Below, in pieces: positions 1,656 through 50,229 of a stretch of 64,000 bases of DNA. The first letter of the stretch is position 1, and every line of letters starts with the position of its first letter. The stretch comes from an uncultured Alphaproteobacteria bacterium (lineage in GTDB: Bacteria; Pseudomonadota; Alphaproteobacteria; RF32; CAG-239), in the NCBI GenBank assembly GCA_944391515.1, contig CALXTW010000008.1:1-64000 (forward strand), given 5' to 3'. Both the position numbers and the translations under genes were made by a program. The notes under the pieces were generated by a model. That model worked only from the letters and a program-made list of their open reading frames with translations, had not been told where the DNA came from and made no database searches.

Positions 1656-1847
1656 ATGCGTACAATTTTGGTGAATATTATAATTTTTGCGGCAGTAATT
1701 GCCGTATGGTATTTTAACATTTTTGAAGTATTCACCATGAAATATGCGTTTTGGGTTGCTTTGATTTTGGTGATTGCGGTGCTGGGGCTTGCGCTGAAAG
1801 TGCTTGGGAATCCTTTTGCCGGAGGAGATAATGATGAAAATAGCTAA
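1656..1847 (+). CDS. Small membrane protein, first gene of the VirB6 block
   Basis: The protein has 63 residues. The first 27 are hydrophobic, and a second hydrophobic segment covers about residues 30-52, so two membrane helices are likely. The C-terminus is polar (GGDNDENS). GGAG lies eight bases before ATG 1656. The stop codon overlaps the start of the next gene and the Shine-Dalgarno of that gene lies inside this coding region, which indicates translational coupling. No family is recognised. Its position suggests an accessory inner-membrane subunit of the secretion channel. Confidence 0.7.
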   Translation: MRTILVNIIIFAAVIAVWYFNIFEVFTMKYAFWVALILVIAVLGLALKVLGNPFAGGDNDENS

Positions 1848-4638: not shown

Positions 4639-4656
4639 CAAAAGTGAGTAATCATT

Positions 4657-5973: not shown

Positions 5974-5978
5974 ATAAT

Positions 5979-8078: not shown

Positions 8079-8086
8079 GTGCTGAG

Positions 8087-11000
8087 ATGGACAATGCTCT
8101 TTATAAAACATATACAAAAGAAATTCTTTCAAGAGTAAGGACTCTTGGAGTAATGTTTTGTATGCTTTTTGTTTTAGTTTGTTCAGCTCATGCTGCTGAT
8201 GTGGTTGATGCTTGTTCGGTTAATATGAGCATGTGTAAAATTGGTTACCAACAACCATCAGAGTCTCTTTATCCTAGTTCTAGAATAAAAGATATTCAAA
8301 ATTCGGGAAAAAACGGATGTTTTAACCCTATGCCAACAAATGTTTCGGAAGTGAGAGAAGAAGTTTGTCTTCGCCCTGATGATTGCGCACAATATCCTAA
8401 TAAACCGAGAATTATTGAAGGTCCATATGCTGGAAAATGTTTACGTCCACATAATGGTATGGATTTATCTGCTCCTAAGGGGACCCCGGTTACAGCCGCT
8501 GCTGATGGATATATTGTTCAAACTTCAACTTGCTTTTCAGGTGGCGGAAACACGATTATTATGAAACATAAAAAAGCAGGAGGGGGATATTATACAACAA
8601 CCTATATGCATCTTCTGAAATTTGCCGATTTTGTTAATGACTATGCAGGACTCGATAAAGTTGTTCCCAAAGGCTCGGTTATTGGTTATGTAGGTGGCTC
8701 TGGATGTTCTAAAAATGGTACATTACAGCAAGATGTTTATGGGAATCACTTACATATTGAACTTCGAGATGGAGATACTGGAAAAGGGGCTATTATGTCA
8801 CCGACTTGTGCTTCCGTGCAAGCTCTTTGTGATGGAAACGCCCCTGTCACGGAAGAACCTATCCAAGATTCCTACACTCCGGCTACAACAACTGCCGCTG
8901 CAACATTAACCGGATGCGGTAAATTATATCCTGAAGATAATCTATCCGCTTTTCACCAACAAGGAGAATCCAAAGGTGATGCCGGTGCATTCAACAAATG
9001 CTGGGCTGAGGATAAGGGAGGGTGTTCTTACGGCTTATCTCAGATGAGTTGCCGTAGAGATTCGTCCGAATGGAATAATTCCACCGTGGCAGATTATTTA
9101 CGTTACTTGCAAAAAAATGATCCCCAAAAATATAAAGCTCTTGAAATCGGAGGGTCATTAAACAATACTATTCAGGCAGCTTGTAACCCTGCCACAGCTA
9201 ATTCTTTTGCTCAAAAATGGCAAGCCTTAGCGGCAAGTGATGCTTCTTTCGGCTCTTCTCAAACCCAATATATTGAAGATTATTACCTGTCTTATGGTCA
9301 AAATGTTCTTAAAAATGCCGGTATGGGGGCTTTGTTAAATCGCTCTCCCGAAATGGATATGGTGATTTTGGCAGGTTCAGTGGCAAGTGCCGGAGCAATG
9401 CGAGATAATTTTAAGGCCGTACAAAAAGCAATTGCACCTAAAACTTTGGCTACTGCTACAGATGAAGAGATTATTGCTGCTTTTTATGATAGCTATGCTG
9501 AAGTTATGTATAAAAGTTATGATCCGAAAACATCTTACATAAAGCGGGCGGCAAGAGACAAAGAATCAGCCCTTGAATCTCTTGCTATTAGAAATGAGAT
9601 TAAAAATGGTTCTACCCTTGAGGAAGCCAGCAAAAAAGTTACAGGTAAGCGCGCTTGTGAAGAAAACGAAATGCCGACGGCTAAGGTTTCTTTAGGTAAA
9701 GCTTCTAGAACATCAACTTTTGTGCCTTATAAGGGAGCAGAAAGTTCTGAAGTAAGATATGAAGTTGATAAAGAATGCAGTACCAAATCTTATCGTGACA
9801 GTTTTCAGACTTGCATCTTTTGTGATATTTTTGAAGTTCTCTTTAATACGGCCAGTGCCGTTGCAAAAAAATCATACAATGCACTCGCTAATGGGGTAAT
9901 CTTATTGGTTTGCGTTGGATTTGCTTTGTGGCTTGGTCTTACAGTTATGCAATTTATTTCTTCTATGGAGCAAAAGAATCCTAGCATTTTAGTTAAGACA
10001 ATATTAAATAAAGCATTTGTGGTTTTGATTGTGGTTATGATTCTTCGTCTCGACTCTGTTGAATTTTTCCGACTTGCTTTAGAGCCTTTATTTAATACAG
10101 GATTTAAACTCGCTCAGTTGGTTATGGAAGGCTATAATGGTGCAACTTGTAGCGGAGAATATAATATCTTAACCTCTGAAGAAGGGGGCGGATTACCTTC
10201 TACCATGGGGGTTAGCATTATTTGTACAATTGAAACAATTCAAGACAAACTCCTTGACATTATGGCTTTAGGATCAACTTCTCTTTGCGTCGCCGTACAT
10301 AAAGAAGCTTATTTTGAAATTCCTATCTTTCCACATATTGGATACTTGATTGTTGGCATTTGCTTGTGGTTAGCTGCAATTATGTTAATGGTTATCTACC
10401 CATTCTTACTCATAGATTCAGTTTTGCAACTTTGCGTCGCAACGGCCTTGTTACCGGCTGCCGTGGGTGCATATGCTTTCAAATCGACACAACAATACGT
10501 ACGCAAAGTTTGGGATGTGTTCTTAAATTGTATGTTTAATTTCATTTTCTTAGCTTTAATTATGTTTATTTTGACAGCAGGATTAGATTCTATCTTAGTA
10601 GATGTTGGTCTTTCTCCTAATTCGCCTCTGAGAGATGCCGGTGAAGGTACTTCTTATAAAATAATCATACAAGATATGGCTTGGTGGGGAATAAACTTCT
10701 TAAAACTCGTGTTCTATATGGTTTTGAGTTGGGCCGTATTAGGTGAAGCGAATTCTTTTGCCGGAAGTTTTGCAAAAGGTGCCGGAATCAAAGGAATCGG
10801 CGCAAATGTCGGTGGACTCGCGGCCTCAACGGCTACAAAAATTGGTCTCGGAACTTTGGGTACAGCTTGGGATTCCTCTATGAAAATTGGAGGTGCCGTT
10901 AAAGACCGCGGAAGCGAATTATTTAATACGCATGTTAAGGCTCCTTACCAGCAAATGAAGGCTAATCGTCGCGCTGATAGAATTGAAAATAGCGATAAAA

Positions 11001-11830
11001 CAACTATTGATGCTAACGGTAATAAATCCTTACAACATCGTACTTGGTATGGTCGTAAAGTTACAGATACATTGCAAGTAAATCCTGACGGCAGTAAAAA
11101 AGTCGTACGCACAAAAAATTCTTTGCTTGGAAGCAAAGCAAGCTCCGTTGAAAATGATAAGTTTATTCAAAGTAAAAAAACTTATGATAAAGACGGAAAC
11201 GTCATCAAAGAAGAAACCAGAATGAATACCGCCGCCGGAAAAACACTATTAAACCGTGACGGGACTCGAAATGAAGTTGCAATTCATGCCATTAGAACAG
11301 GTAGCTCTATGTCGCAAGATGATATTGACAAGGCGTTAATGCAACAAATGATGAGTGAACGTATGGGCGGTATTCTCGGTGCCGATATGAATAAGGAATT
11401 CAAGAGCAGGTCTATGGAAAGATCCTTAGATGATAAGGGTCGTGAAGTTGTTACCGTTAAACAGATTAATACTGATGGCTCGACCAGCATCTTCCAAATG
11501 ACAAAAGGAGAGAAGAGAGATATGCTTTCTTATACTCGCATTGCTAAAAACGGAAAGGCTGAAAGCTATTCTTCTGATGGTATTATTAACAAAAAATCAT
11601 CTTTCAAAATGGACAAAGATGGTAAAATAGACGCTAAGAGTGTTAAAAACAATTATGCTTTTGCGAAGAATTATAACCACGCCACGACACGTTCTATGGA
11701 CAGTAATGGTAAATTTAATCGCGATATTCCTGCTGATCAAATTATGATGAGTGAGGAGGATATGGCTTTGTTTAGAGAGCAAATTGCCACTTATGGAAAA
11801 GATGCTCCTATGGCAGAATTTGGAAAATAG
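8087..11830 (+). CDS. VirB6-like protein 4 fused to M23 peptidase and lysozyme-like domains
   Basis: This 1247-residue multidomain protein has a signal peptide ending near SAHAA. Residues about 115-245 form an M23/LytM endopeptidase with the zinc ligands in HNGMD (122-126) and HLH (221-223), plus His175, so it looks active. Residues about 275-480 resemble a lysozyme/transglycosylase-like domain: Glu293 in GESKGD, followed by SYGLSQM. After CIFC (about 580) comes a polytopic VirB6 core to about residue 920. The hydrophilic tail (about 950-1247) is rich in DG-containing turns. The protein would open peptidoglycan on the periplasmic side while sitting in the channel, replacing a separate VirB1. 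It is the last gene of the VirB6 block and is followed by a terminator. Confidence 0.8.
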   Translation: MDNALYKTYTKEILSRVRTLGVMFCMLFVLVCSAHAADVVDACSVNMSMCKIGYQQPSESLYPSSRIKDIQNSGKNGCFNPMPTNVSEVREEVCLRPDDCAQYPNKPRIIEGPYAGKCLRPHNGMDLSAPKGTPVTAAADGYIVQTSTCFSGGGNTIIMKHKKAGGGYYTTTYMHLLKFADFVNDYAGLDKVVPKGSVIGYVGGSGCSKNGTLQQDVYGNHLHIELRDGDTGKGAIMSPTCASVQALCDGNAPVTEEPIQDSYTPATTTAAATLTGCGKLYPEDNLSAFHQQGESKGDAGAFNKCWAEDKGGCSYGLSQMSCRRDSSEWNNSTVADYLRYLQKNDPQKYKALEIGGSLNNTIQAACNPATANSFAQKWQALAASDASFGSSQTQYIEDYYLSYGQNVLKNAGMGALLNRSPEMDMVILAGSVASAGAMRDNFKAVQKAIAPKTLATATDEEIIAAFYDSYAEVMYKSYDPKTSYIKRAARDKESALESLAIRNEIKNGSTLEEASKKVTGKRACEENEMPTAKVSLGKASRTSTFVPYKGAESSEVRYEVDKECSTKSYRDSFQTCIFCDIFEVLFNTASAVAKKSYNALANGVILLVCVGFALWLGLTVMQFISSMEQKNPSILVKTILNKAFVVLIVVMILRLDSVEFFRLALEPLFNTGFKLAQLVMEGYNGATCSGEYNILTSEEGGGLPSTMGVSIICTIETIQDKLLDIMALGSTSLCVAVHKEAYFEIPIFPHIGYLIVGICLWLAAIMLMVIYPFLLIDSVLQLCVATALLPAAVGAYAFKSTQQYVRKVWDVFLNCMFNFIFLALIMFILTAGLDSILVDVGLSPNSPLRDAGEGTSYKIIIQDMAWWGINFLKLVFYMVLSWAVLGEANSFAGSFAKGAGIKGIGANVGGLAASTATKIGLGTLGTAWDSSMKIGGAVKDRGSELFNTHVKAPYQQMKANRRADRIENSDKTTIDANGNKSLQHRTWYGRKVTDTLQVNPDGSKKVVRTKNSLLGSKASSVENDKFIQSKKTYDKDGNVIKEETRMNTAAGKTLLNRDGTRNEVAIHAIRTGSSMSQDDIDKALMQQMMSERMGGILGADMNKEFKSRSMERSLDDKGREVVTVKQINTDGSTSIFQMTKGEKRDMLSYTRIAKNGKAESYSSDGIINKKSSFKMDKDGKIDAKSVKNNYAFAKNYNHATTRSMDSNGKFNRDIPADQIMMSEEDMALFREQIATYGKDAPMAEFGK

Positions 11831-18935: not shown

Positions 18936-18964
18936 AAAAAAGAGGGCAATAGCCCTCTTTTTTT
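18936..18964. terminator. Bidirectional terminator between convergent operons
   Basis: AAAAAGAGGGC and GCCCTCTTTTT around an AATA loop, with A- and T-runs on both sides, can terminate the plus-strand operon. It also overlaps the 3' end of the minus-strand virB11 gene. Confidence 0.8.
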
Positions 18965-19931
18965 ATGTGACTTCGGTAACAGCACGTAGGTTACCATCAC
19001 GATTAATTTGCACCACTCTTAGTTTACGGTGCATTTCTTTAATGGTTTTTTCGCGGTCAATTGTCGGATAGCTATGCAAAATACGGTCAACAAAGGCCTC
19101 ATAGGCAGCCTCAGAACTCTCGGCGTGAATGGTCGCCAAACAGTTATCGTGGCCAGACCCCATAAGCTCCCACAAAGCTCCGGCATTGTTGGTTGAAATC
19201 TCACCTCCAATAATGGCGTCAGGCGTAAAACGTACTACCAAGTCGATGATTTTTGAATAGTCAAACTCGTTGGTTTGTTCGGTACGTGACATTACTACAT
19301 GGACACGGTTAGGATGCGGAACTAAAAGTTCTCGGGTATCTTCAATGGTAATAATTCTTTTATGAATATCTAAGATTTTTAACAAGTTATTTAAAAAGGT
19401 GGTTTTACCTGTTGCCGTTGCACCGGATACCAATATGTGGTCACCTCTTTTAATGCTAAGTAATAACCTCTCATAAGGATCTTCCGGATCTTGAATATCC
19501 TTCAATGGATTGATTTTATGCAGGCTTTCTCCTTGTTTTAAGCCATAATCTTGCAGACCAAAGGCAACATCATCACTATGAACACGAATGGTTAAAGCTA
19601 CGCCTCCGGTCAAGTCATCTTGATCGTACATCACATTTCGCCCACTTATGGCTGAAAAACGGTGATCTCCAGGTATCGTTGCATAAACCACCGGTGTACC
19701 TTGAACTGGATCAAATGGCAATTCATAAGTGTTTGCAATGATATAAAGCAAATCTGTCAGATATTCTTTAGTTAGTTTCTCATCTTTATACATTACCCAA
19801 GGATAGGCCCTTTTTCCTCGCAAACGAAGCCAAACTTGTCCCGAGCGGTTAATTGCTACTTCCTCAATATTTTCTTGATTATACCAATAAGCCAAAGGGC
19901 GTAATACTGATTCCAAAACCTTAAAACTCAT
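18963..19931 (-). CDS. virB11: VirB11 T4SS ATPase
   Basis: This 322-residue cytoplasmic hexameric ATPase energises pilus assembly and substrate transfer. An N-terminal domain (about 1-150) is followed by Walker A GATATGKT (170-177), an Asp box around ITIEDTREL (195-203), Walker B around DAIIGGEIS (238-246) and the His box region SGHDNCLATIHAES (259-272). The length and N-terminal domain match VirB11 better than the PilT/DotB group, which is represented separately at 58870. It is the last gene of the VirB minus-strand operon, 12 bases after the VirB10 C-terminal gene, and its stop codon lies in the shared terminator. Confidence 0.92.
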   Translation of the reverse strand: MSFKVLESVLRPLAYWYNQENIEEVAINRSGQVWLRLRGKRAYPWVMYKDEKLTKEYLTDLLYIIANTYELPFDPVQGTPVVYATIPGDHRFSAISGRNVMYDQDDLTGGVALTIRVHSDDVAFGLQDYGLKQGESLHKINPLKDIQDPEDPYERLLLSIKRGDHILVSGATATGKTTFLNNLLKILDIHKRIITIEDTRELLVPHPNRVHVVMSRTEQTNEFDYSKIIDLVVRFTPDAIIGGEISTNNAGALWELMGSGHDNCLATIHAESSEAAYEAFVDRILHSYPTIDREKTIKEMHRKLRVVQINRDGNLRAVTEVT

Positions 19932-19943
19932 ATCTTTACTCCC

Positions 19944-22900
19944 TTAAAACAGTTGAGGAACACTACTATCTGTTTTTTGTGTATTATTCGTTGTTGCAGC
20001 ACCAGGTGTACTTGAGGTTGCAAATGATGGTGGCGGCGGAGGGGTCGCTCCAGCTGCAGTACTAGAAATTAGTTGCGGATTGTTATTATTTGCTTGATTA
20101 TTCTTCTTAGTATCTGCTTCGTTTAACAATGCCGGAGAGCGGCTTTGGATTTCCATATTTGGCCCTTGTGACTGATAAACTACATTTCCTCCTACAGGAG
20201 CATCTCGACGGTTCTTTTCACGTACTGTTGCTACTTCTGCCGAATTAATCAAAATATTGGATCTTCTCTTTTCAGGATCAACTTTCGGATTACGTTCTCT
20301 GGTTCTCATCCACAAATCAACATTCGGATAAACGATAATACGAGTACCGGCCGGAACATATGTCAAAGGACGAATATTGGTTTTATCTGATAAAATTTGT
20401 TCGAATACTTGATTCATCTGATCCAAGAAGTTTTGACGAGCATCATTAGCAGCTTGTTGTTTTGGCGTTTCTGTTAAGCTCGAATCATCATTTTCATCAT
20501 CAGCCATCATATAAGAGGTATAGCTGGTTAAAGCCGTGGTTAAGATTGGTAAAGTATATTTTTTGAACAATTGTTGATCTAAGTATCCAAGTGCGCCACC
20601 TCGACCTTGTGCATCTCCTGTTACACCACTAAATACAAACAGCGAGCCATCTGGACAAATTAACCTCTCCCATGAGATTTGAACTTTTGCAGACTGTGAA
20701 GTAGTTTCTGATGTTCCGGTTAAATTGCCCAATGTTCCCATAAGCCTGCTTCCGGCAGGAATAATGATATTTCTTCCTTCTTCAGCATAAATGTTTCTTT
20801 CAACATATGCCGTAACAGGTGTTGGATTATTACTGTCAATTGAACGTGCAATTACTGCCGGAATTGGTTTATCGGCAAATATCATTTCACTTAAGTTAAC
20901 TCGCCATGAAGATATTGCCTTTTTAATTCCTTGTTCTTCCCAATCTTTTTGCATTCCGTCAAAAGTATCCGGGCTAATATTGCTACTTATTTTTCCAACC
21001 TGCATATTACTGCGACGTTCTTGTTGAGCTGCGTCTAAAGCCATGGCGCGTTGTGGGTCATATCTTTCTCCTGGACCAAAACCTCCTCCCGGACCAAGAT
21101 TTCCTCCTGGACCACTACCTGTGCCGTATGCTCCGCCTTGTCCAAAGGTGCCGGCGGGGATAAACATGTCTTCGGCTGATGGTTTTGCGCTTTCTTCAAT
21201 TCCTATAAGAGCACCTTCGTCATCTATAACTAATCCGTCAGGCATGCGATGACCGACCACTTTTCCCTCTTTATTGACGACACTTCCGTCTTCCATGATC
21301 TCGCCTAAATATTCTCCATCCGGAGTTAAGGCTATTCCTAATGAACGGCGATACTTTTCCGTCATTTTTTCTTCTTCAGGAGAAAGTCCAATTTCCGGTA
21401 TTGCACTGGGCGCTTTGTACCATCCCTGTTTGTCGGACGGCGTTTCCGGAGCAATTATTGTACCAATGGTATTGCCATTGGCATCTATAATTGCACCATT
21501 TTCACCTATTTTACCAATGATTTTACCTGCATTATCTATAACGCTTCCGTCAGGCAATACTTTACCTATTATATTACCATTTGCATCGTAAGCTACTTTA
21601 TTGCTGGCTAATTCTCCGACAACATTACCTTTTTCATCAACCACTTTACCATTTTTAACAGTACCGATAATGTTTCCTCTTTCATCGCTAACAGTTCCGT
21701 CTGGGTTTGCATAACCAATGAGGTTACCATTCACATCAAAAACTTTTTCTCGTTCTGCTATTTCTCCATAATATTGCAAAGGTTTTGCCATCGCAATCAC
21801 TCGGCCATTACTATCTATTATACTGCCGCTTTTGGTAATGGTTCCTAATACTGAGTTATTTATATCTCTCAATTCTCCATTGAAAAGCAATTCACCCAAA
21901 ATGCGGTTAGAATCGTCTCTAATATAAAAATCTCTATTTCCGCGACCCTTTACCTCGCCATTTTTATCCAATAGAAAACCTCTGCTCAAACGCCCTAAAT
22001 TCTGGTTTACAAATGACAATATACTACCATCTTTCTGGATAACACCTATAGCCTCAAAATCATTATCGTAAATATAAAAATCATATAATGCATAACCGAT
22101 TTTATAGTTGTCTTTAATCACATTTCCTTCAAAGTCAACTTGTCCGATATTATTGTCTTGGTTGTCTAAAACAGCCCCTTCTTCGGTTATCCGTCCAATG
22201 TATTTATCTGCCAAGCTAAATGCGTAGCGGTATTTAAACAAATGACCTATTGGAGCTCCAGTTTTTGAATTTACATTGCCGTTGGCTTGTTGATATCCGA
22301 TAAATTGGTTCTCCGTATTTACTATTTGTCCATCTAAAACACTACGTCCTAAAATAACACCATTAAAATTCATTACAGGATAGTATTCAATTGTGTGGGC
22401 AAGAGAAACACCTTCGTCATTTTTTAGAAAACCGCGTTTATCAATGCAGCCTAAATTATTATTTCCATAATTCAAGACTTGTCCGTTAGATGAAACTGTG
22501 CCGATAATATTGCCATTATAATCTATAACTGCTGTCGGATTAATACTATAACCTATGTAAGAGCCGTTTTCAGATACAACCTGTCCATTAAGTAAAGGAC
22601 GTCCCATTACGGTATCTCTATAATTTCGAACCTCTCCGCGTGAGGTGACAACACCCAAGAAGGAGCATTTATCGTCTATGCTTGTCGTGTAATTTATGAC
22701 TCCGCCGATTGCTGAACCGGAATTGTCCAATAATGCGCCCTCTGCAGTTATTTTACCAAGATTAGCACCTCCAAAATCTTTAACTACACCTAAATCATTA
22801 ACATAACCGGCTAAGCGTCCATTAAACAATAAAGCTAATGAGGCTGAACTTCCCTTACCTTGCTGTGGCATCATATTGACCGAAGTGTTATCTTGAGATG

Positions 22901-24494
22901 TTACCACTGAACCATCAGGGATATATTTTCCAGTAATACTTCCATCTGCCTTTTGAATAAGATTTTCGTTATTTTCTAAACCTATTGAAGAACCTTTAGA
23001 ATCTACAAAATACCCATTTTCAAGGTTCTTTCCGATTATGAGATTACGCTCATCTACATTAAAACCTGATTGTGTTAACTTTCCTAAAGCGGCAACGTTT
23101 TTGTTGGTTAACTGACCATTAGGCATTATTTGTGCAACAGGTGTACCCGTAATGTTATAAATAGAAGAGAGATTTAGGCCTCGTCCTGAAGATTTACCAT
23201 CTGCCGAAAACAGATATCCAAACGGGGACATATATTTTTTCTCTTCTCCGTCCATAACAGAGCCACTGATACCAACCATTCCTAAAACCTGATTATTAGC
23301 ATTAACGGCTAATAAATTCTTCATTGTCGCACCAATAGCTCGTCCGGTATTTTCATAAGCAATATTATCCATAATATAACCGGCCGGCGTTCCCTCCATA
23401 GTAACGATTGAACCATTTTTCAACGCGTGTGCTTTAAGAGTACCTTTATAATCAAAAACCGGACCTGCTTTAATTATCTTACCAATGAGTTCTCCGTTTT
23501 CAGATAAGATTACCCCTCCTGAGCCGACACGACCTATATCATCTTTGCTCTTACGGACTTTTCCCTGTGGCACAATTCGTCCTAAATATTTTCCGTTTAA
23601 ATCTGTTGCTGTTGCTGAAAAATCAACAATGGAACCTATTATCTCGCCTTTTGTATTTACGATTGTTTCATCAGCTTGAACGCGACCAACAACATTATTT
23701 TTTTCAACAACTTCACCATTGTAAGTTACAAATCCTAGGTATTTTCCGGAATTATCCAAAGCATAGCTTGAGCGAACTATGCTGCCAATCACTTGATTAT
23801 CTTTATTATAGACAAAGCCATTGGCTTTAACATAACCGATTGTTTGGGTCTCAAAATTTGTAACATTTCCACCAGGGGCAACGCTACCTATAAATTCACC
23901 ACTTAGTGATACAACCATTTTTGAGGAAATAAGACGGCCATCCAATATATAATCCTGACCAACTTTACGATATGCATAACCATCGGGAGAGACAAATCCT
24001 ATCGCTTGCCCTTGCAGATTGGTATATAAACCATCGCCGGTCAAGCGTCCGATTGTCTTACCATCATCAGAATAAATCAATCCAGGAAACAAAACTGAGC
24101 CGACAACATTAAAAAAGTCATCTAACACCAGACCATTCGGTAAAACTTTTGCGATGATTTTTCCTGAAGCCAAACGAACAGAACCATCGTTATTTACTTT
24201 TCCTAAAGGCTTATTATCATTTCCGATTGCAATACCTTGAGGAACAACACCGCCGATGATTTCACCATCAAAATCCAAAATTAAGCTGTCTGCCGTTACA
24301 TTGCCGATTAATTGATTATCAAAACTTACAACTTTACCATCGGGAATGACTTTACCTATCAGTTCTCCGTTAAAGTCAACAGCTGTAATCTCCTGAGCTT
24401 GAGCATTAGCGCAAAAAAGCAACATTCCTAACAGAATGCTGGTAATTTTCAGTCTTTTGGCACAGTTTTTCTTTTTTGTTACTTCCCGTCCCAA
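19944..24494 (-). CDS. virB10: VirB10 outer-membrane half: exported 17-residue repeats plus TrbI domain
   Basis: The protein has about 1516 residues. Translation probably starts at TTG 24494, one base after the previous stop and six bases after GGAGGA; the open frame extends 16 codons upstream but inside the neighbour gene. It has its own signal peptide (hydrophobic core SILLGMLLFCANAQA). Residues about 35-1100 are tandem imperfect 17-residue repeats of the form G-hydrophobic-V-x-x-DG-x-V-x-D-x-x-G-x-x-I/V-G. A Gly/Pro linker follows (about 1115-1145). The VirB10/TrbI C-terminal domain at about 1190-1420 contains IPAGSRLMGT, the VQISWERL-PDG segment and a hydrophobic antenna-like stretch around TLPILTTALTSYTSYMM. 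There is no cytoplasmic N-terminus or inner-membrane anchor; those are on the preceding gene. Confidence 0.85.
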   Translation of the reverse strand: MGREVTKKKNCAKRLKITSILLGMLLFCANAQAQEITAVDFNGELIGKVIPDGKVVSFDNQLIGNVTADSLILDFDGEIIGGVVPQGIAIGNDNKPLGKVNNDGSVRLASGKIIAKVLPNGLVLDDFFNVVGSVLFPGLIYSDDGKTIGRLTGDGLYTNLQGQAIGFVSPDGYAYRKVGQDYILDGRLISSKMVVSLSGEFIGSVAPGGNVTNFETQTIGYVKANGFVYNKDNQVIGSIVRSSYALDNSGKYLGFVTYNGEVVEKNNVVGRVQADETIVNTKGEIIGSIVDFSATATDLNGKYLGRIVPQGKVRKSKDDIGRVGSGGVILSENGELIGKIIKAGPVFDYKGTLKAHALKNGSIVTMEGTPAGYIMDNIAYENTGRAIGATMKNLLAVNANNQVLGMVGISGSVMDGEEKKYMSPFGYLFSADGKSSGRGLNLSSIYNITGTPVAQIMPNGQLTNKNVAALGKLTQSGFNVDERNLIIGKNLENGYFVDSKGSSIGLENNENLIQKADGSITGKYIPDGSVVTSQDNTSVNMMPQQGKGSSASLALLFNGRLAGYVNDLGVVKDFGGANLGKITAEGALLDNSGSAIGGVINYTTSIDDKCSFLGVVTSRGEVRNYRDTVMGRPLLNGQVVSENGSYIGYSINPTAVIDYNGNIIGTVSSNGQVLNYGNNNLGCIDKRGFLKNDEGVSLAHTIEYYPVMNFNGVILGRSVLDGQIVNTENQFIGYQQANGNVNSKTGAPIGHLFKYRYAFSLADKYIGRITEEGAVLDNQDNNIGQVDFEGNVIKDNYKIGYALYDFYIYDNDFEAIGVIQKDGSILSFVNQNLGRLSRGFLLDKNGEVKGRGNRDFYIRDDSNRILGELLFNGELRDINNSVLGTITKSGSIIDSNGRVIAMAKPLQYYGEIAEREKVFDVNGNLIGYANPDGTVSDERGNIIGTVKNGKVVDEKGNVVGELASNKVAYDANGNIIGKVLPDGSVIDNAGKIIGKIGENGAIIDANGNTIGTIIAPETPSDKQGWYKAPSAIPEIGLSPEEEKMTEKYRRSLGIALTPDGEYLGEIMEDGSVVNKEGKVVGHRMPDGLVIDDEGALIGIEESAKPSAEDMFIPAGTFGQGGAYGTGSGPGGNLGPGGGFGPGERYDPQRAMALDAAQQERRSNMQVGKISSNISPDTFDGMQKDWEEQGIKKAISSWRVNLSEMIFADKPIPAVIARSIDSNNPTPVTAYVERNIYAEEGRNIIIPAGSRLMGTLGNLTGTSETTSQSAKVQISWERLICPDGSLFVFSGVTGDAQGRGGALGYLDQQLFKKYTLPILTTALTSYTSYMMADDENDDSSLTETPKQQAANDARQNFLDQMNQVFEQILSDKTNIRPLTYVPAGTRIIVYPNVDLWMRTRERNPKVDPEKRRSNILINSAEVATVREKNRRDAPVGGNVVYQSQGPNMEIQSRSPALLNEADTKKNNQANNNNPQLISSTAAGATPPPPPSFATSSTPGAATTNNTQKTDSSVPQLF
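21190..24390 (-). repeat. Array of about sixty 17-residue coding repeats (VirB10 C-terminal gene)
   Basis: The 51-bp coding units share the pattern DxxGxxIGxVxxDGxVxx. They are more diverged than those in the upstream gene; the copies nearest the TrbI domain (around 21450-21720) are closest to the consensus. The count is estimated from the span, not enumerated. Confidence 0.8.
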
Positions 24495-24495
24495 C

Positions 24496-27400
24496 TCAGT
24501 TCCTCCGGTTCTTTGCAACTTCCTGCAATGCATAGCCTGCAACTTTCTTGTCTAAATTTATGTATGAGCCATTATTTTTCAGATAGCCGACGTTTTGCCC
24601 TGTAGCATCTTGAACCACACCTTCAGCAGTTAGGCGACCGATATAGCTTCCGTCATTTCCTAAAATTGTAGCTCCAATCTTATAAATTTTGCCAATAATA
24701 TTGTCATTGTTATCTATTGCCAAATCCCCTGAAATGGCTCGACCAATCAGGCTTCCTTCTTTATCCCTGATTTTACCATCAAAATTTACATAGCCTACTA
24801 CTTTATCTGAGTTATCAATAACTATATCACCGTGAACGACTTCTCCGATTAATTTTCCTGAGGCACTTATTACATTGCCATCCGATAATACTCGGCCAAC
24901 AACTACATTTTCTTTATCTATTACTTGTCCATTGGGCAAAACTGAACCTATTGTATTTCCTCCAAAATCTATAACAGCTCCTCTTTTTAAGAGACTTAGA
25001 TTTTTATCAGTTGAACCTCCAGGCAAGACTGCTGTTATTACCTCATTTTTCAAGTCTATAACATCGCCAACCGAGTTTACACGACCTTTGTAATTTCCCC
25101 ATATATCAACAACGATATTTTCTGGGATAACTTCACCTATTACCGTTCCTTTTAAATCGACTACCTTACCATCTGAACTGGTGGTGCCGACTTTGGTTCC
25201 TTCCATGCTGATAACAGTTCCATCCGTAGTGGCATACCCTAAAAATGCCCCATCATAACCAATGGCACTTCCTCTTGATATTACTCCGCCACGATAATCT
25301 CCTTTATTATCAATAAAATTACCTTTAGCGTCAATTCGGCCTAAATTTTCACCAAAGCGAGTAATAACTTGTCCGTCATGTGTAACTTGTCCTATTGTTT
25401 TGCCAGCAAAGTCTGCAACAAAACCTTTCTTTACCAAGTTACCAATTAAAAAATTATAAAAATTCATACCATCGCCATGGAGTTTGCCTACCGCATTTCC
25501 CTTAGAATCGTATATCTCTCCATTTGGAAATAGTCTCCCTTTGAAATTGCCTTCAGGCGAGATAACGCTGGCTTTTTCATCCATGAGCACGCCTAAAATT
25601 TCATTGCGATTATTGGCTAAAAGATTATTTGCATATAATTTAGCATCCGGTTGTCCGCTTATAGAGACTTTTCCGTTCGGCCCAACAAGATTTAAGAAAT
25701 TCCCATGTAAATCATAGGCTTGAGTCTTATCTAAAACGCGACCGATATATGCTCCGTCTTTATTAAAGACATCTCCATAGATGCCGACGCACCCAACGGG
25801 AAGTTGAGAAAGAGCTATAACCAATCCATCTGCAGAAACTTGACCTAAATATTCACCGTCGTAGGCTAGTGCTACTCCTTCGCGTGCGACACTGCCGATA
25901 ACATCCCCTTTTTCGCTTAAAACCGTACCATCGGGATTAACACATCCAACATATACTCCTTCCGGTGAGCGAACTATTCCATCGGTACTGACATCACCCA
26001 TGTAGGTACAGTTATTATCAAACACTTTACCCGTTCTGAGAACTTCACCAACATAATTGTTTTCATTATCTACAATAATGCCATTGGGCATGGGTTTGAG
26101 TTTCGTTTCTGTATTACCTTTTTTTATCTTTCCGTCAGAATCCAAATAGCCTACATTTTTACAGCCATATCCAACAACCAAACCGCCTCTTATTAATCGG
26201 GCGACAATTTCTGAACCTGAAGGATCTCTAACCAAGCCGTTAGATAATACCCGCCCTACAATCTTGTTGTTTTGAACAACCGTTCCATCATTATTTAGTT
26301 TACCTAAAACAGTTCCTTTAGGAGTAATCGGAAGCATTCGCGTTTGAACCAAAGCGCCTAATGTTTTGTCTTGCGAACTTACAATATTACCATTTTCATC
26401 AACATAACCTATTTCATTGCCTTCAAGGTCAAATACCTTGCCGTTGGCATCTACAAAACCAACAATTTTACCATCCTTATCCAATACAAGGTTGACGAGC
26501 TCGCCGGCTTTGCCAATCACATTTCCTTCTAAATCAACCAAGGTTCCATCATCGAGCATTTTGCCTATGATATTACCATTAAAGTCAACAACATTGCCGT
26601 TTTCATCAATATAGCCGATTACATTGCCATCCTTATCATAAGCTAGGCGACGTTGTGCGCCGATATTCATATCGGCGACTTTACCGATAACATTACCATT
26701 ATTGTCAACCACCGTTCCGTCCGGCAATACGCGACCAATAATATTACCATTGGCATCGCGGACATTACCGTCCTCATCAACATAGCCTATAACATTACCA
26801 TCTTTATCATAAACCAAACGTCTTCCGGGAACATTGGCAGCTTGACCTATTATATTCCCTTCTGCATCAACAATTGTCCCATCGGGGAGAACTTTGCCTA
26901 TGATATTACCATTGAAATCTACAACATTTCCATTTTCATCAACGTAGCCGATTACATTACCATCTTTATCATAAGCTAAGCGTCTTTGAGGAACTGTGGT
27001 CGATTTGCCTAAAACATTACCATTTTCATCAACAATATTTCCGGCGGCATCCGTTCTTCCAATCACATTTCCGTTCGAATCGATTACATTTCCGTTACCA
27101 TCTACAAAACCTAAAACTTTGCCATTTTTATCGTAAGCTAATTTAACAGAACCTCCGGCATTTCCTAAGACATTTTTGCCAACAACTTTTCCGTTCTCAT
27201 CGACATATCCGACAACATTTCCGTTTTTATCCACAACCGAACCATCAGGCATTACCACGCCCAAAACATTTCCGTTGGCATCAACAGCAGCCCGACCTTG
27301 CTTACTTACCCGACCGATAACGTTACCATTTGCATCTACCACTTCACCATTTGCGTTTAACTTACCTATAACATTACCGTTCATGTCAACAACTGTACCG

Positions 27401-28419
27401 TCAGGCATTACACGCCCTATAATGTTGCCATTTTCATCATAGACAAACCCGGCATCGACTGCTTTACCTATCACATTACCATTCAAATCTACAACTGTTC
27501 CGTCCGGAAGAACTCGCCCTATGATATTGCCATCCTTATCGACCACCGTACCATCCGGATTTACATAGCCAATAACATTACCATTGGCATCATAAACCAA
27601 ACGGCGATTTTCACCGACACCTATTACATTACCATTTTCATCAACAATCATTCCAGCCGAGTTGGCTCGCCCGATAACATTTCCATTGGCATCACGGACA
27701 TAACCATCTTCATCCATGGTTCCGATTACTTCACCATTCGGACCTATTGCATTTCTAGTTCTAAGTCCCTTGGCATCGTTTTCTTTATCTTTTGAGATAT
27801 TCTCTGTAGGAACTTGCTCACAAAAATTACAGTCTTCTTTACGGATTGCATTTCCTTCAACAGGAACCTTGGCTGATTTTGCATTGGCAGATGTTAAATT
27901 GGCTTCATGCCAAGTAATAATAAAATTATTTTGAACATTTCCCGGTACAACTGGCGTCCAGCTCATTGTAATGTCGCAAGTCTCATGGCCTCTTAACTCT
28001 TTGTCCGTACAGTCATCCTTAAATGTAAATCCATCGAAAGGAGGTTCTGCCAATTGAACGGAAACAATTTTTATTGATGCTTTAGCGTTTGTCCCCACCG
28101 TCAATACATTTTTTGCATCTGTTCCTAAAACAACTTGTCCCATTTGAACCGGATTGGGGGTGGTCGTAATCGGAGGTTCTTTATCCTCTATCATACCAAA
28201 TTCAATATTCGTTGCCGGGCCGTTATCAATAGCTAAATTCAAAGCATCGTCATTAGAGGTAAACACAGGTTCCGTATATTCATTTTCTACCGGACCGCTT
28301 TGCATTAATAGCATAACACCAAACACAAAAATTACAAAAGAGGTAATACCAACCACAAAGATTATGCGGTTGGTCTTTTTGATATAACTCTCCGAATGTG
28401 TTAAGACCTCTTTGCTCAT
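24496..28419 (-). CDS. VirB10 inner-membrane half: anchor, Ig-like domain and 17-residue repeats
   Basis: The protein has 1307 residues. A short cytoplasmic N-terminus is followed by one membrane helix (about residues 18-40), as in VirB10/DotG. There is then an Ig-like domain (about 70-185; FTFKDDCTDKELRGHETC and MSWTPVVPG resemble ASH/choice-of-anchor folds) and an NFCEQ cysteine pair. From about residue 215 to the end there are roughly 63 repeats of 17 residues such as VVDKDGNIIGRVLPDGT. There is no TrbI C-terminal domain; that lies on the next gene with its own signal peptide. The start overlaps the virB9 stop by 4 bp (ATGA), with AAGGA upstream. It probably pairs with the following protein to span the periplasm. 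Confidence 0.8.
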   Translation of the reverse strand: MSKEVLTHSESYIKKTNRIIFVVGITSFVIFVFGVMLLMQSGPVENEYTEPVFTSNDDALNLAIDNGPATNIEFGMIEDKEPPITTTPNPVQMGQVVLGTDAKNVLTVGTNAKASIKIVSVQLAEPPFDGFTFKDDCTDKELRGHETCDITMSWTPVVPGNVQNNFIITWHEANLTSANAKSAKVPVEGNAIRKEDCNFCEQVPTENISKDKENDAKGLRTRNAIGPNGEVIGTMDEDGYVRDANGNVIGRANSAGMIVDENGNVIGVGENRRLVYDANGNVIGYVNPDGTVVDKDGNIIGRVLPDGTVVDLNGNVIGKAVDAGFVYDENGNIIGRVMPDGTVVDMNGNVIGKLNANGEVVDANGNVIGRVSKQGRAAVDANGNVLGVVMPDGSVVDKNGNVVGYVDENGKVVGKNVLGNAGGSVKLAYDKNGKVLGFVDGNGNVIDSNGNVIGRTDAAGNIVDENGNVLGKSTTVPQRRLAYDKDGNVIGYVDENGNVVDFNGNIIGKVLPDGTIVDAEGNIIGQAANVPGRRLVYDKDGNVIGYVDEDGNVRDANGNIIGRVLPDGTVVDNNGNVIGKVADMNIGAQRRLAYDKDGNVIGYIDENGNVVDFNGNIIGKMLDDGTLVDLEGNVIGKAGELVNLVLDKDGKIVGFVDANGKVFDLEGNEIGYVDENGNIVSSQDKTLGALVQTRMLPITPKGTVLGKLNNDGTVVQNNKIVGRVLSNGLVRDPSGSEIVARLIRGGLVVGYGCKNVGYLDSDGKIKKGNTETKLKPMPNGIIVDNENNYVGEVLRTGKVFDNNCTYMGDVSTDGIVRSPEGVYVGCVNPDGTVLSEKGDVIGSVAREGVALAYDGEYLGQVSADGLVIALSQLPVGCVGIYGDVFNKDGAYIGRVLDKTQAYDLHGNFLNLVGPNGKVSISGQPDAKLYANNLLANNRNEILGVLMDEKASVISPEGNFKGRLFPNGEIYDSKGNAVGKLHGDGMNFYNFLIGNLVKKGFVADFAGKTIGQVTHDGQVITRFGENLGRIDAKGNFIDNKGDYRGGVISRGSAIGYDGAFLGYATTDGTVISMEGTKVGTTSSDGKVVDLKGTVIGEVIPENIVVDIWGNYKGRVNSVGDVIDLKNEVITAVLPGGSTDKNLSLLKRGAVIDFGGNTIGSVLPNGQVIDKENVVVGRVLSDGNVISASGKLIGEVVHGDIVIDNSDKVVGYVNFDGKIRDKEGSLIGRAISGDLAIDNNDNIIGKIYKIGATILGNDGSYIGRLTAEGVVQDATGQNVGYLKNNGSYINLDKKVAGYALQEVAKNRRN
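24560..27780 (-). repeat. Array of about sixty-three 17-residue coding repeats (VirB10 N-terminal gene)
   Basis: The 51-bp units have the consensus VVDxNGNVIGRVxPDGT. Those between about 26350 and 27720 are nearly uniform, including larger duplicated blocks such as RRLAYDKDGNVIGYVDENGN; those nearer the 3' end are diverged. The uniform part suggests recent expansion. The count is estimated from the span. Confidence 0.85.
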
Positions 28420-30050
28420 TGCGTCCTTACTACGCTACAAAATACTCCGTTTCTTCCTAAACGACTGCACACATTGTCGCCGGATTCTAAACTTTTTACC
28501 GGACCGACGCGCAAGTGAAATAGCTCTTTTCCTTGCCCATCCGCAGGCGCATCCACCGAGAAAAATGGCTCGTAGCGGTTCAAAACGTCAGGATACTTTT
28601 TGGAAAGCTCGCTCCACAAATTCTCTAAATTAGAGACATTGGCGTCCGTTCCAAGTTCAATCGAGATATTTGAACTATCAGCATCTACGAAACCTGAACC
28701 AAAACCATAGGTCCCTGAATTGGGATTTTGCCCTACAGAATTGTTTGCATAGCGATTATTGTTTTTTATATGCTGCATCTTTGAATAATCATAGCCGTCA
28801 TTAGGTGGTTGGGAACCCGCAGTAACACCATTGCCGACTCCAGACATGTTATTACCATAACGAGGAACGACTATTTCACTTTGGCCAACCTGAATATCAT
28901 ACTGACCGGGCATTCCGTTAGCCGATGAATTAAATTCACTATTATTTCCCGTTCCGCCAGCAGGGCGTCTTCCGCCTCCTGGTATTGGAGCTGGTACATC
29001 CCATGCGGCATCATCAAAATCCGTTGCATAAGTTGCATATTCTAGGCCAGCATCATCTGAACGACGCATTTTCAAACAAACCAGTCTTTTTCCATTTCTT
29101 AAAACCATATCGCCAATACCTTCAACAATTATCAAGCGATTATTAGGACCTTTGGTTCTAAATCCGACCGGAACCTCTATTCTTTCCACAATTAGCGTGA
29201 CTATTGGGCGTTGGGTCATATTCAGGGCTTTTTCGCCAAAGTCAATGTAAGTGAAGATATCATCTCTCCAGACTCTTTCCGGTGCAATAACTACGTCATC
29301 CGGGTTAGGAACATAAACTTCAATATCAAAGCGAAATTTACTCGGGTCAACGGGAATGTCTTTAATCCAATCACTTCTTTGAAAACTTTTAGTAAAAAGG
29401 GAATCTACCGAACGAGAGTTTCCTGACTTAAATGTCGAAGCATTAACGCCAGAACCTCCACCGACACTACCACCGTTTACCCCGGCTCCTCTTGAGCCTG
29501 CGGGACCGTCAATAACATCAATATCAATAATGGAGTTGGTTAAGCGCTCGGTATTAACACCCTCACTTTTGACATAAAATACATATTTGTTTCCGGAACG
29601 ACCAAATATAATGATATTGGTATCAACACCAACATTTGCTCCCTTACGAGGATATAGCAAAATTGTATTTGGCCCTGAGATTTGCCCGTCAAATGTCGCG
29701 TTATCACCGATATACATGTCTTCAATTAACTCCCAAGAAGGGAAGTTTAGCAATGTTATCATTCCTTCACGCAAGCGTATCGGTAAAATCAAATCCGGGG
29801 ACCAATAATATTTTGAATAAGCCGGTTTGCTTTGACCTTCGCCTAAATTTTGGAGCGGGTCTAGCCACGCAGCCTGCGTCATTCCTAAAGAATTAAAGCC
29901 AGCATAACCAAGGTTCATCGGCATATATTGCCCTTGACTCTGGTCGGCATTTTGATCCAAGCTTCCCATCGTGGCTTGAGAAAGAGCATTACGGCTCATG
30001 ACTAATGCCATCGCCGCTATTAATAAACTTTTGCCAACTTTCAAAATCAT
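28416..30050 (-). CDS. virB9: VirB9-like outer-membrane core protein with C-terminal SPOR domain
   Basis: The protein has 544 residues with a signal peptide (cleavage near NALSQA). Residues about 75-180 match the VirB9/DotH N-terminal domain: LREGMITLLNFPSWE, YIGDNATFDG, then a TNIIIF-KYVFYVKSEG strand pair. Residues about 240-335 match the C-terminal VirB9 domain: PERVWRDDIFTYIDFG...GDMVLRNGKRLVCLKM. After a Gly/Asn-rich linker, residues about 462-544 look like a SPOR domain (ISIELGTDAN...LFHLRVGPV...CSRLGRNGVFCSVV), which binds denuded peptidoglycan. VirB9 with VirB7 and VirB10 forms the outer-membrane complex. SPOR is not part of usual VirB9 proteins. The gene lies between virB8a and the two VirB10 halves. 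Confidence 0.85.
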   Translation of the reverse strand: MILKVGKSLLIAAMALVMSRNALSQATMGSLDQNADQSQGQYMPMNLGYAGFNSLGMTQAAWLDPLQNLGEGQSKPAYSKYYWSPDLILPIRLREGMITLLNFPSWELIEDMYIGDNATFDGQISGPNTILLYPRKGANVGVDTNIIIFGRSGNKYVFYVKSEGVNTERLTNSIIDIDVIDGPAGSRGAGVNGGSVGGGSGVNASTFKSGNSRSVDSLFTKSFQRSDWIKDIPVDPSKFRFDIEVYVPNPDDVVIAPERVWRDDIFTYIDFGEKALNMTQRPIVTLIVERIEVPVGFRTKGPNNRLIIVEGIGDMVLRNGKRLVCLKMRRSDDAGLEYATYATDFDDAAWDVPAPIPGGGRRPAGGTGNNSEFNSSANGMPGQYDIQVGQSEIVVPRYGNNMSGVGNGVTAGSQPPNDGYDYSKMQHIKNNNRYANNSVGQNPNSGTYGFGSGFVDADSSNISIELGTDANVSNLENLWSELSKKYPDVLNRYEPFFSVDAPADGQGKELFHLRVGPVKSLESGDNVCSRLGRNGVFCSVVRTQ

Positions 30051-30070: not shown

Positions 30071-30805
30071 CTATTGAACCCTATTTAGCGTCAAAGAATA
30101 TCTATCCACCGTAAATCCTACCGGATTATTTAAACGCTCACCATATTTTACACTTTTTCTAACATAGCGAACCCGAAGCGAAGCTGTCCAATAATTTATT
30201 TCCGGCTTTGTGGAATCCGGATACATGTCTTGGGTCTCATATTCTACCTGCCACAAACCTTGTCCCAGCTCATTTACAGTTAAAATACGAACATTTCTTT
30301 GTAAACTTTTAGCTCTTATTAACTCTATCGCGCGTCTTGCAGTCTTATTCAAAAACTCTTGATAGACCGCGGGAGAAGACATTTCTTGAATTGGACCTCC
30401 CGGCATCCAACGGGCTTCCATCTCCGGTATATCTCTATCAAAAGAACTCCTTTGCAAGACATACTCTCGCACAAACACTTCGGTAATTGCCTTTTCATCG
30501 GCCAAATTACCTCTAACCGGAACAATATTGTATACTTGTTCCCCCTTTGCTTGGAATGTTAACAAAAAAGGCTCTATGCGAAATAGGGGCATAACCTGAA
30601 CAATCGCCAAGAACAACACAACATTACAGCACAAACTTATCGCCGTAATTACCGCGAAAGCACGCGCCGTCCACAAATATCTTTTTTCGCCAACGTTTGC
30701 TACAAAAACATCTTCATTGGCGCGAGACTTAACCGTTTGTTGAGGACGAGATTGCCCTCCACCAATAAGGCGTTGTTGCGTATTATTTCCTAAACGATTA
30801 TCCAT
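30071..30805 (-). CDS. virB8: VirB8-like inner-membrane protein, copy a
   Basis: The protein has 244 residues: a cytoplasmic N-terminus, one membrane helix at about 48-73, and a periplasmic VirB8/DotI-type domain of about 165 residues ending in NPVGFTVDRYSL, the characteristic final strand region. VirB8 bridges the inner-membrane ATPase complex and the outer core. AGGA precedes ATG 30805. It is 8 bases downstream of the small lipoprotein and 20 bases upstream of virB9. A second copy lies at 31116-31874; both share EPFL after the membrane helix and NP-I/V-GFTV-RYS near the end. Confidence 0.88.
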   Translation of the reverse strand: MDNRLGNNTQQRLIGGGQSRPQQTVKSRANEDVFVANVGEKRYLWTARAFAVITAISLCCNVVLFLAIVQVMPLFRIEPFLLTFQAKGEQVYNIVPVRGNLADEKAITEVFVREYVLQRSSFDRDIPEMEARWMPGGPIQEMSSPAVYQEFLNKTARRAIELIRAKSLQRNVRILTVNELGQGLWQVEYETQDMYPDSTKPEINYWTASLRVRYVRKSVKYGERLNNPVGFTVDRYSLTLNRVQ

Positions 30806-30813
30806 TGGTCGTC

Positions 30814-31002
30814 CTAAATTGTTTCAACAAACCAATCCGGAAGATTTTTCGGCAATTCAACCTGCATACAAGCGCAGGGAGAGAGCTTCAACTCATCTAC
30901 ACCTTTACCAACACCGACAGGTTCTGCCTCATAATATGAACCAAAAATGCCGCAAGATGACAACAGCATTAGTACAAAAAGCATAATTATCTTTTTTGAC
31001 AT
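30814..31002 (-). CDS. virB7: VirB7-like small lipoprotein
   Basis: The protein has 62 residues with a lipoprotein signal peptide (lipobox LSSC, Cys17). The mature part has two further Cys close together (CAC) and the stretch VELPKNLPDWFVETI. Size, lipobox and position just upstream of virB8a and virB9 fit VirB7, which anchors VirB9 in the outer membrane. The sequence is too short for a firm family match, so the assignment rests mainly on context. AAGGA lies eight bases before ATG 31002, and a TATAAT-containing promoter lies about 50 bases upstream. Confidence 0.7.
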   Translation of the reverse strand: MSKKIIMLFVLMLLSSCGIFGSYYEAEPVGVGKGVDELKLSPCACMQVELPKNLPDWFVETI

Positions 31003-31052
31003 GTCTTATTTCCTTATCTATATCATTCGAGTACTCTTATAGATATTATGAA

Positions 31053-31079
31053 ATTATACTCTTTTTCATTAAAAGTCTA
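31053..31079 (-). promoter_or_regulatory. Putative internal promoter for virB7-8a-9-10-11
   Basis: On the minus strand TATAAT (31053-31058) is preceded by TAGACT (31074-31079) at a spacing of 15. It lies in the only sizeable gap (113 bases) of the block, and the first start codon is about 45 bases downstream of the expected transcription start. The -35 box is weak. Confidence 0.4.
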
Positions 31080-31115
31080 ATACCCTGTTGCGAAAATCCC
31101 CAACTTATCAACAAG

Positions 31116-31874
31116 CTATAATATCTCAACTTCGGCTTGAGAATATCGCGTAACAGTAAAGCCTATGGGGTTAATCAACCTCAAACCGGTAAATTCACGC
31201 CCGGGAATAAAAAATGCTGTAACTGATGCTGTCCAATATTTAACTGTCATAATTCTAGCCCTGGTCTGACTATCTACCGCATTTCTTGACAATTCATAGG
31301 TTTTAAAGTCAACTTTCCAGACAGGGCTCCTTTCTCCGCCCTGTTTACCTATCGAAATTATCTCCACCTCTCGAACTATACCATTCTTCCGCATTGTTCC
31401 CCATATACTCTCTCTGTACTGCGAAAATTCATTATAAACTCTCGGGGCTGAAAGAAAATTTATCATTCCTCCGTCATACCAACGGACTTGCATTTCCCTT
31501 TCATCGTCGATTATGGTATTGCGGAGAATTACAAATTGAGCCACAAAAATTTCCATTAATTTATTTTTAGACGCCATTCGATTTGTAATGGCCTCTGCTC
31601 GAACTATACCTTCAGATGTATCTTGATTAATGATTAAAAACGGCTCTACTGAAACTTGAGGTGCCAGCTTAAACAACGCCAGAGAAAGACTCATAAACAT
31701 TAAAAGCGAAAGAATTGCAAAGAAGATAAAAAGTCTGGAAAGCCACATGTAATATTTGAGCTTAAAACCTTCTTTTTCTTCCTCAGTTTCACTGATGAAC
31801 TCATGAGTCTGACCATTGGAATCCGTCAATGACAGAACTTTTGCGCCTTCCAACTGCGGATTTATGCCGTTCAT
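31116..31874 (-). CDS. virB8: VirB8-like inner-membrane protein, copy b
   Basis: The protein has 252 residues: a cytoplasmic N-terminus of about 44, one membrane helix (about 45-70) and a periplasmic VirB8-type domain containing VEPFLI, RWYDGGMINFLSAPRVYNEF and the terminal INPIGFTVTRYSQ. It aligns over its whole length with the copy at 30071-30805 but is clearly diverged, so it is an old duplication, possibly giving a mixed ring. It is 14 bases downstream of the 1544-residue coiled-coil gene and the last gene before the internal promoter. Confidence 0.85.
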   Translation of the reverse strand: MNGINPQLEGAKVLSLTDSNGQTHEFISETEEEKEGFKLKYYMWLSRLFIFFAILSLLMFMSLSLALFKLAPQVSVEPFLIINQDTSEGIVRAEAITNRMASKNKLMEIFVAQFVILRNTIIDDEREMQVRWYDGGMINFLSAPRVYNEFSQYRESIWGTMRKNGIVREVEIISIGKQGGERSPVWKVDFKTYELSRNAVDSQTRARIMTVKYWTASVTAFFIPGREFTGLRLINPIGFTVTRYSQAEVEIL

Positions 31875-47084: not shown

Positions 47085-47534
47085 TTATTTGGCCGAGACC
47101 AGACTATCTGTTATCATTTTATCGGTTATCACTTCGCTATCAACCATATAGTTGATAATTCCCGCGGTTGTTGCTATTACAAACAAACCAATAATAATTG
47201 CCACGAGCCATTTCCAGTTCATCGTTCCAAAAAAAGCTCCGACGGCAATTGCAACCACACCAAAACCTGACACAGCATAGATAATTTCTCGCATACCGCC
47301 AAAAATTTCTATCCCTTTATTTGTCAAGTCACTAAACAGAACCCCATCTTCAGCATAGGAGTTTGTTGCAAATAAAATTGAAGAAACTGCAAAAATCATT
47401 ACAGAAAGAACAAGAAATTTCTTTAATTTTACGCACAACATATTCTCATCCCTTTTTTGAAAAATTTGTTTTATTTTTGAGACACAGATAGCAAAAGGGA
47501 AGGATTTTGGTTGCTTTGTATTTAAGTTTTCCAT
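47085..47534 (-). CDS. virB2: VirB2-like pilin, copy 2
   Basis: The protein has 149 residues. ATG 47534 has a very strong ribosome site (GGGGAGG, five bases away), giving a long leader before the hydrophobic signal region, as in some conjugative pilins. An internal ATG at 47441 (118 residues) with GGGATGAG is the alternative. After cleavage near NSYA, two hydrophobic segments (YAVSGFGVVAIAVGAFFG and WLVAIIIGLFVIATTAGII) match VirB2. It lies between the 112-residue VirB2 and the chimera. Confidence 0.75.
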   Translation of the reverse strand: MENLNTKQPKSFPFAICVSKIKQIFQKRDENMLCVKLKKFLVLSVMIFAVSSILFATNSYAEDGVLFSDLTNKGIEIFGGMREIIYAVSGFGVVAIAVGAFFGTMNWKWLVAIIIGLFVIATTAGIINYMVDSEVITDKMITDSLVSAK

Positions 47535-48074: not shown

Positions 48075-48264
48075 GAACTGAAATACATAAAAACATCTTA
48101 TTTTTAATGCTAAAAGGTAAATTTTTCTCTAACAGATTGAGCTTATTTTTGATTTTCATCCTCCGTAAAAGATATTTTTCGTTTCATTTTGTGTATAATT
48201 TTATATCTGCCTTGCCAAGAGTCGTATATTGAATTATCAAGGGTTTAGAGGGGTTTTTATTTTG

Positions 48265-50202: not shown

Positions 50203-50229
50203 GCCTTGGTAATAAGTCGAGTCTGACGC

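Follow-up and report, generated by a model that had tools for sequence, protein, structure and literature searches.

VirB10 of type IV secretion systems (T4SSs) is normally a single chain, and its relative DotG carries repeats. The TrbI domain of VirB10 forms the outer-membrane ring, and its transmembrane (TM) helix is part of the inner-membrane complex (PMC4182333, PMC11294453). Homologues of VirB10 include DotG/IcmE of Legionella (PMC8486379) and CagY of Helicobacter pylori, a large protein of an expanded T4SS with a repeat region (PMC5954226) that is alpha-helical according to the title of PMC2581425. Here we analyzed a 64,000-nt stretch of DNA from an uncultured alphaproteobacterium of the order RF32 (contig CALXTW010000008.1, positions 1 to 64,000; hereafter the window), in which VirB10 is divided between two adjacent minus-strand genes, virB10N and virB10C. 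No report of a split VirB10 was found in the open-access papers searched, and the known homologues are indeed single chains, as a preliminary description of this DNA had held.

Two genes for one VirB10

VirB10N has a cytoplasmic N-terminal tail and a single inner-membrane TM helix homologous to the N-termini of fused, that is uninterrupted, VirB10 proteins. It ends in a C-terminus, VAKNRRN, that is kept across the family and contains an immunoglobulin-like (Ig-like) domain that aligns with the fused homologues, although its matches to PF15780 and NF012200 both fall under the curated cut-offs. Pfam and NCBIfam profile searches found no TrbI domain in VirB10N, and a PDB sequence search with it gave no matches. 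The 1307-aa open reading frame (ORF) is thus, as first described, a VirB10 anchor without TrbI. Profile searches of both proteins, a check proposed at that stage, placed TrbI above cut-off in the downstream protein only (PF03743, E=1.7e-35, residues 1221-1411 of a 1532-aa ORF), with profile matches to the structures of ComB10 (2bhv), CagY (6odi), VirB10 (6gyb), TraF (3jqo), and TrwE (7o3j). The VirB10 and ComB10 models match VirB10C under their cut-offs, and by these NCBIfam equivalog scores (110 of 300 and 91 of 220 bits) VirB10C is a divergent VirB10 family member. Profile searches revealed no TM anchor homologous to that of VirB10 in VirB10C.

The virB10N stop (TGA, 24498-24496) is followed one base later by the virB10C start (TTG, 24494), with GGAGGA at 24506-24501 (junction sequence ...GTTGCAAAGAACCGGAGGAACTGAgTTG), exactly as had been noticed at the outset. 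The ORF list begins virB10C at an in-frame TTG inside virB10N (24542), giving the 1532-aa version; TTG 24494 is the start that follows the ribosome-binding site. The precursor opens with a signal peptide (...ITSILLGMLLFCANAQA), and the features first assigned to the downstream gene, namely its own signal peptide, its own ribosome-binding site, and TrbI without an anchor, all hold. Judged by motif and hydropathy only, the peptide has across 73 loci (defined below) the positive n-region, short hydrophobic core, and small-x-Ala site of a Sec signal peptide, with a length of 25-36 residues. On these features, VirB10C would be exported by Sec and then cleaved. A signal peptide is easily mistaken for a type II anchor, however, and the cleavage is a prediction; the hydrophobic stretch could instead be an uncleaved anchor, in which case both proteins would sit in the inner membrane and the TrbI half would cross the envelope alone. 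We regard this as very unlikely, as the hydrophobic core is short, with a best 19-residue hydropathy mean of 1.73 compared with 2.87 for the VirB10N TM helix over the 73 loci, and a small-x-Ala type cleavage site recurs in nearly all of them. A terminator-like hairpin in the signal-peptide codons (24420-24441) was no stronger than in shuffled sequence and was set aside.

Loci were collected from related genomes, of which 36 of 56 contain TrbI, and from named genomes that were scanned for them, and each reading frame was inspected; 73 complete loci from the order remained after removal of duplicates. The split, with a signal peptide on VirB10C, was found in all 73 in this survey of relatives, which the preliminary description had recommended, and the two halves lie in different frames or reading-frame segments in every one. 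The carriers form a large group, uncultured and for the most part from the gut, and many projects contributed their assemblies; Azospirillum sp. CAG:239 (FR885446.1) is among them, with a protein sequence identical to that of the locus of genome G015. The second start lies 0-4 nt past the first stop in nearly all loci and is TTG in 36, GTG in 21, and ATG in 16, and GGAGG is found near the stop in 64 of the 73. The distance from the stop to the mature protein varies from 78 to 112 nt, with its remainders modulo 3 distributed 30/27/16; therefore, no frame relation is maintained between the halves. Purifying selection acts on both genes: when the window is compared with G006, nonsynonymous divergence (dN) is 0.06 for VirB10N and 0.10 for VirB10C, and synonymous divergence (dS) is about 2 or saturated.

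Because start and stop almost touch, the junction could be read as a frameshift, a sequencing error, or a programmed frameshift joining the two frames, and one fused outgroup (G231) does carry a plain frameshift. The comparative data already refute this reading, the probability of which we consider negligible. Specifically, the gap modulo 3 is spread 30/27/16 with a signal peptide in every locus, the assemblies are many and independent, and G231, which has no signal peptide, is clearly different. A simple frameshift had been called unlikely at first sight; the 73 loci, their three frame relations, and the constant signal peptide agree, and recurrence across independent assemblies also disposes of the objection that a read error separates the frames. 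We take the split, its conservation, its polarity (see below), and selection on both genes to be demonstrated with near certainty.

Fused relatives and the origin of the split

Fused giant VirB10 proteins occur in four other families (G034, G053, G104, G220, G314, G322, and G399), where one uninterrupted frame of 1280-2838 residues carries the TM helix, Ig-like domain, beta-flower repeats, and TrbI. These proteins share with the split pair the TM-flanking motif YxKK[TS]NR, the Ig-like domain, the PF21785 repeats, TrbI, and the neighboring genes, but their frame is uninterrupted and has no internal signal peptide. Their N-terminal 200 residues align with VirB10N, with G053 and G034 being 32-35% identical to the window. 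The preliminary description had viewed an uninterrupted VirB10 gene in relatives as evidence against the split. Such genes do exist, all of them in other families of the class, and rather than refuting the split they show it to be derived.

In a TrbI tree rooted on lipoprotein-type VirB10s, a branch with support 92/94 separates all split rows from the rest, the fused rows are paraphyletic, and one change is enough. This makes the fused form the most likely ancestral state. The support is 57/91 when G081 is added, a member of another family in whose locus (L157, minus strand, first 2 kb) the repeats are interrupted by a stop and a signal peptide, with a later frameshift at VNKIVLDA. Reading the G081 TrbI frame as fused or broken was rejected, since the upstream sequence shows the stop and then the signal peptide. 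G231 (L070, near minus-strand nt 7380) was rejected as an independent split, being a frameshifted fused gene without a signal peptide. On this sequence evidence, the split appears to be a single derived event, a conserved gene fission of VirB10.

A different origin would be tandem duplication of the whole VirB10 gene followed by reciprocal loss, the first copy losing TrbI and the second losing the TM helix and gaining a signal peptide. The presence of the same repeats in both halves would fit such a history, as would the multiple matches of single repeat windows along the fused proteins. However, VirB10N and mature VirB10C together measure 2525-4110 residues, with a median of 2641, compared with 2157-2838 for the larger fused proteins (G034 has 1280). 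The median is about the length of one large fused protein, not two, which supports simple fission over duplication, and no Ig-like or TrbI remnant is present in the wrong half. We therefore consider duplication improbable.

Lipobox VirB10/TrbI proteins (LASC↓G and LTAC↓G; G042 and G051) were observed in two other families of the class, at 6446-8038 on the minus strand of L035 and as a 607-aa frame at a contig end in L036. They contain Ig-like and TrbI domains but neither TM helix nor repeats. Apparently lipoprotein-anchored, they would represent a further departure from the standard inner-membrane anchor.

Repeat arrays and a possible link across the envelope

The matching 17-residue repeats first seen in both proteins stand out clearly from chance: VirB10N contains 50 strong units and VirB10C 42, whereas shuffled sequences averaged 5.0 and 4.4, and the unit spacing is almost always 17. 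PF21785 matches the two arrays with 208 and 273 bits, for a cut-off of 38. AlphaFold2 (AF2) models built with 32 orthologues gave a mean predicted local distance difference test score (pLDDT) of 87.1 and a predicted TM-score (pTM) of 0.77 for mature VirB10C residues 1-1099 (21096-24392), and values of 83.9 and 0.73 for VirB10N residues 198-1307. Both arrays are modeled as nearly all beta hairpins with a period of 17, continuous and ordered. The final 600 residues of VirB10N, which are conserved, have pLDDT values near or above 90 nearly up to the C-terminal end, and in VirB10C order begins at the first mature residues; thus, the arrays are predicted to be ordered at their mutually facing ends.

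Cysteines recur at a fixed spacing. VirB10N has two interleaved pairs 73 residues apart (residues 753, 804, 826, and 877) and VirB10C one such pair (mature residues 576/649), each running from a tip DxxC to GC and kept in most of the 73 loci. Of seven fused proteins examined, six also have pairs about 73 residues apart, and the order of a quad followed by a pair, as in VirB10N then VirB10C, is matched by four of the six large fused proteins. A spacing of 73 equals four units plus five residues and would place the two cysteines next to each other if a turn comprised four to five hairpins. With regard to a closed-flower barrel, the AF2 models are all-beta with high confidence, and the cysteine spacing is about 4.3 units.

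The beta-flower fold (PF21784-PF21786), whose Pfam cut-offs both arrays far exceed, is described in the passages of PMC10584680 that name it as single shallow barrels of four- to sixfold symmetry; those passages make no link to T4SSs. By comparison with that description, VirB10N and VirB10C form long continuous arrays. Foldseek found no global match of either model to a solved structure and only local Rhs/teneurin hairpins. Local hairpin repeats are indeed shared with Rhs/YD-repeat cocoons (Foldseek probability up to 0.99, RHS_repeat Pfam matches), but the TM-scores of those matches are about 0.1 or lower.

The two halves occur together. Among the 125 genomes surveyed from the order, 97 contained the VirB10N domain and 100 contained TrbI; list comparison gave both in 96, VirB10C only in 4, VirB10N only in 1, and neither in 24. 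Three VirB10C-only loci were inspected, of which two end at a contig edge inside the repeats (G467, G479) and one begins on a short contig (G499). VirB4 was also missing from 13 of 14 examined genomes without both halves, and the pair was therefore lost together with the secretion system. Among 398 genomes sampled from the phylum, the VirB10N domain was found only in the window's own genome and in one weak match, and among 385 sampled from the class it was found in 18.

We favor, with moderate confidence, a VirB10 gene fission with arrays that rejoin in the periplasm, an association that the preliminary description had also suggested. In one derived event in an alphaproteobacterial lineage, a break within the repeat array would have divided a giant beta-flower VirB10, with the downstream part gaining a signal peptide and a ribosome-binding site. 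VirB10N would then be anchored N-in in the inner membrane with its array projecting into the periplasm, and VirB10C, exported by Sec, would form the outer-membrane ring via TrbI with its array pointing inward. Most likely, the arrays would rejoin noncovalently, end to end or side by side, which would preserve the transenvelope link in the form of two chains, not necessarily present in equal copy numbers. Weighing against this reading are that VirB10C signal-peptide cleavage is only predicted, that the tree branch behind a single origin is moderately supported, and that repeat profiles slid along the fused homologues gave no unambiguous position for the fission, since the repeats cross-match.

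Alternatively, the halves may not touch, the rings being uncoupled or coupled by VirB8 arches, the VirB9 SPOR domain, or peptidoglycan, and VirB10N serving only as an inner-membrane regulator. Cell-wall anchoring is plausible because VirB9 has a SPOR domain and a VirB6-like protein has M23 and lysozyme-like domains, and a TM-anchored VirB10 is not universal in the class because the lipobox VirB10s of two families have no TM helix. However, long, conserved, ordered arrays of one type up to the facing ends would be unexplained without a partner, and we judge separate halves to be rather unlikely. It is also conceivable, and we suggest this tentatively, that the machine can do without a covalent VirB10 bridge from membrane to membrane, and perhaps without a direct one of any kind, with halves of independent stoichiometry and signals, if any, passing via fiber contact or the cell wall.

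The secretion system and its known relatives

The minus-strand gene order is VirB8, VirB8, VirB9, VirB10N, VirB10C, VirB11 (Table 1), and the secretion system is a P-type (VirB-like) T4SS.

Table 1. Coordinates of the two virB10 genes, their parts, and other T4SS genes in the window
Feature	Position	Strand	Evidence or remark
virB10N, inner-membrane-anchored VirB10 half, 1307 aa, C-terminus ...VAKNRRN	24496..28419	-	
VirB10N N-terminal TM helix, residues about 19-40	28300..28365	-	Hydropathy; aligns with fused homologues
VirB10N Ig-like (ASH / choice-of-anchor D) domain	27925..28155	-	Weak: PF15780 E=0.0013, NF012200 E=0.0009
VirB10N beta-flower repeat array, 17-residue units	24511..27750	-	PF21785/PF21784; AF2
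Ribosome-binding site GGAGGA of virB10C, within last virB10N codons	24501..24506	-	
virB10C, TrbI half of VirB10 (predicted exported), TTG start, 1516-aa precursor	19944..24494	-	
VirB10C signal peptide, about 34 aa, ANAQA↓Q/E	24393..24494	-	
VirB10C beta-flower repeat array	21194..24392	-	PF21785/PF21784; AF2
TrbI (VirB10 C-terminal, outer-membrane ring) domain	20310..20882	-	PF03743 E=9.3e-37
VirB11 ATPase	18963..19931	-	Start 12 nt past VirB10C
VirB9 (CagX) with C-terminal SPOR domain	28416..30050	-	Stop overlaps virB10N start (ATGA); Pfam
Two VirB8 genes (30071-30805, 31116-31874)	30071..31874	-	Pfam
VirB4 ATPase	41163..43595	-	
VirB2/TrbC pilin-like	47085..47534	-	Slightly under Pfam cut-off
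Three VirB6/TrbL-like genes (1804-4638, 5979-8078, 8087-11830)	1804..11830	+	Middle gene under Pfam cut-off

A Dot/Icm identity, with VirB10 as DotG, was ruled out, as VirB2, VirB4, three VirB6/TrbL, two VirB8, VirB9, and VirB11 are present and the operon ATPase matches VirB11 with 145.8 bits compared with 15.8 bits for DotB. The comparison with DotG in the preliminary description thus survives as an analogy only. A profile search found no PF03432 relaxase in the window's genome, and a VirD4-like coupling protein is encoded on another contig.

Several other genes of the window were noted. The third VirB6/TrbL-like gene (8087-11830, plus strand) encodes a single 1247-aa protein that combines an M23 peptidase, a VgrG3-like C-terminal (lysozyme-like) domain, and a VirB6/TrbL membrane domain. 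Within the T4SS operon, 31889-36523 (minus strand) encodes a 1544-aa protein with a likely signal peptide and without a Pfam match, and relatives have large ORFs at the equivalent position. Also without a Pfam match is an acidic protein encoded at 13122-16211 (plus strand), which contains a lysine run and tandem repeats centered on DGQDWEWEYEE. Adjoining the T4SS is a type IVb-like pilus cluster at 48229-59832 (plus strand) with TcpQ, a secretin, PilO, and two T2SSE ATPases.

The conserved, natural two-chain VirB10 makes the need for physical continuity in substrate transfer directly testable. In the R388 machine, layers with 14- and 16-fold symmetry are combined with a sixfold inner-membrane complex (PMC11294453), and DotG is present in 16 copies in the dome versus 18 in the periplasmic ring (PMC8486379). 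The split may offer a way round such symmetry mismatches, because the two halves could differ in copy number.

Taken together, the halves have the TrbI domain, the place between VirB9 and VirB11, and the single N-terminal TM helix of canonical VirB10, TrwE, TraF, and ComB10 (PF03743). Unlike these one-chain proteins, they are encoded by two genes, are several times longer, and carry beta-flower arrays; instead of one envelope-spanning polypeptide, a stop, a ribosome-binding site, a start, and a signal peptide intervene. With CagY and DotG they share the character of large VirB10 homologues of expanded T4SSs, but both of those are described as single chains.

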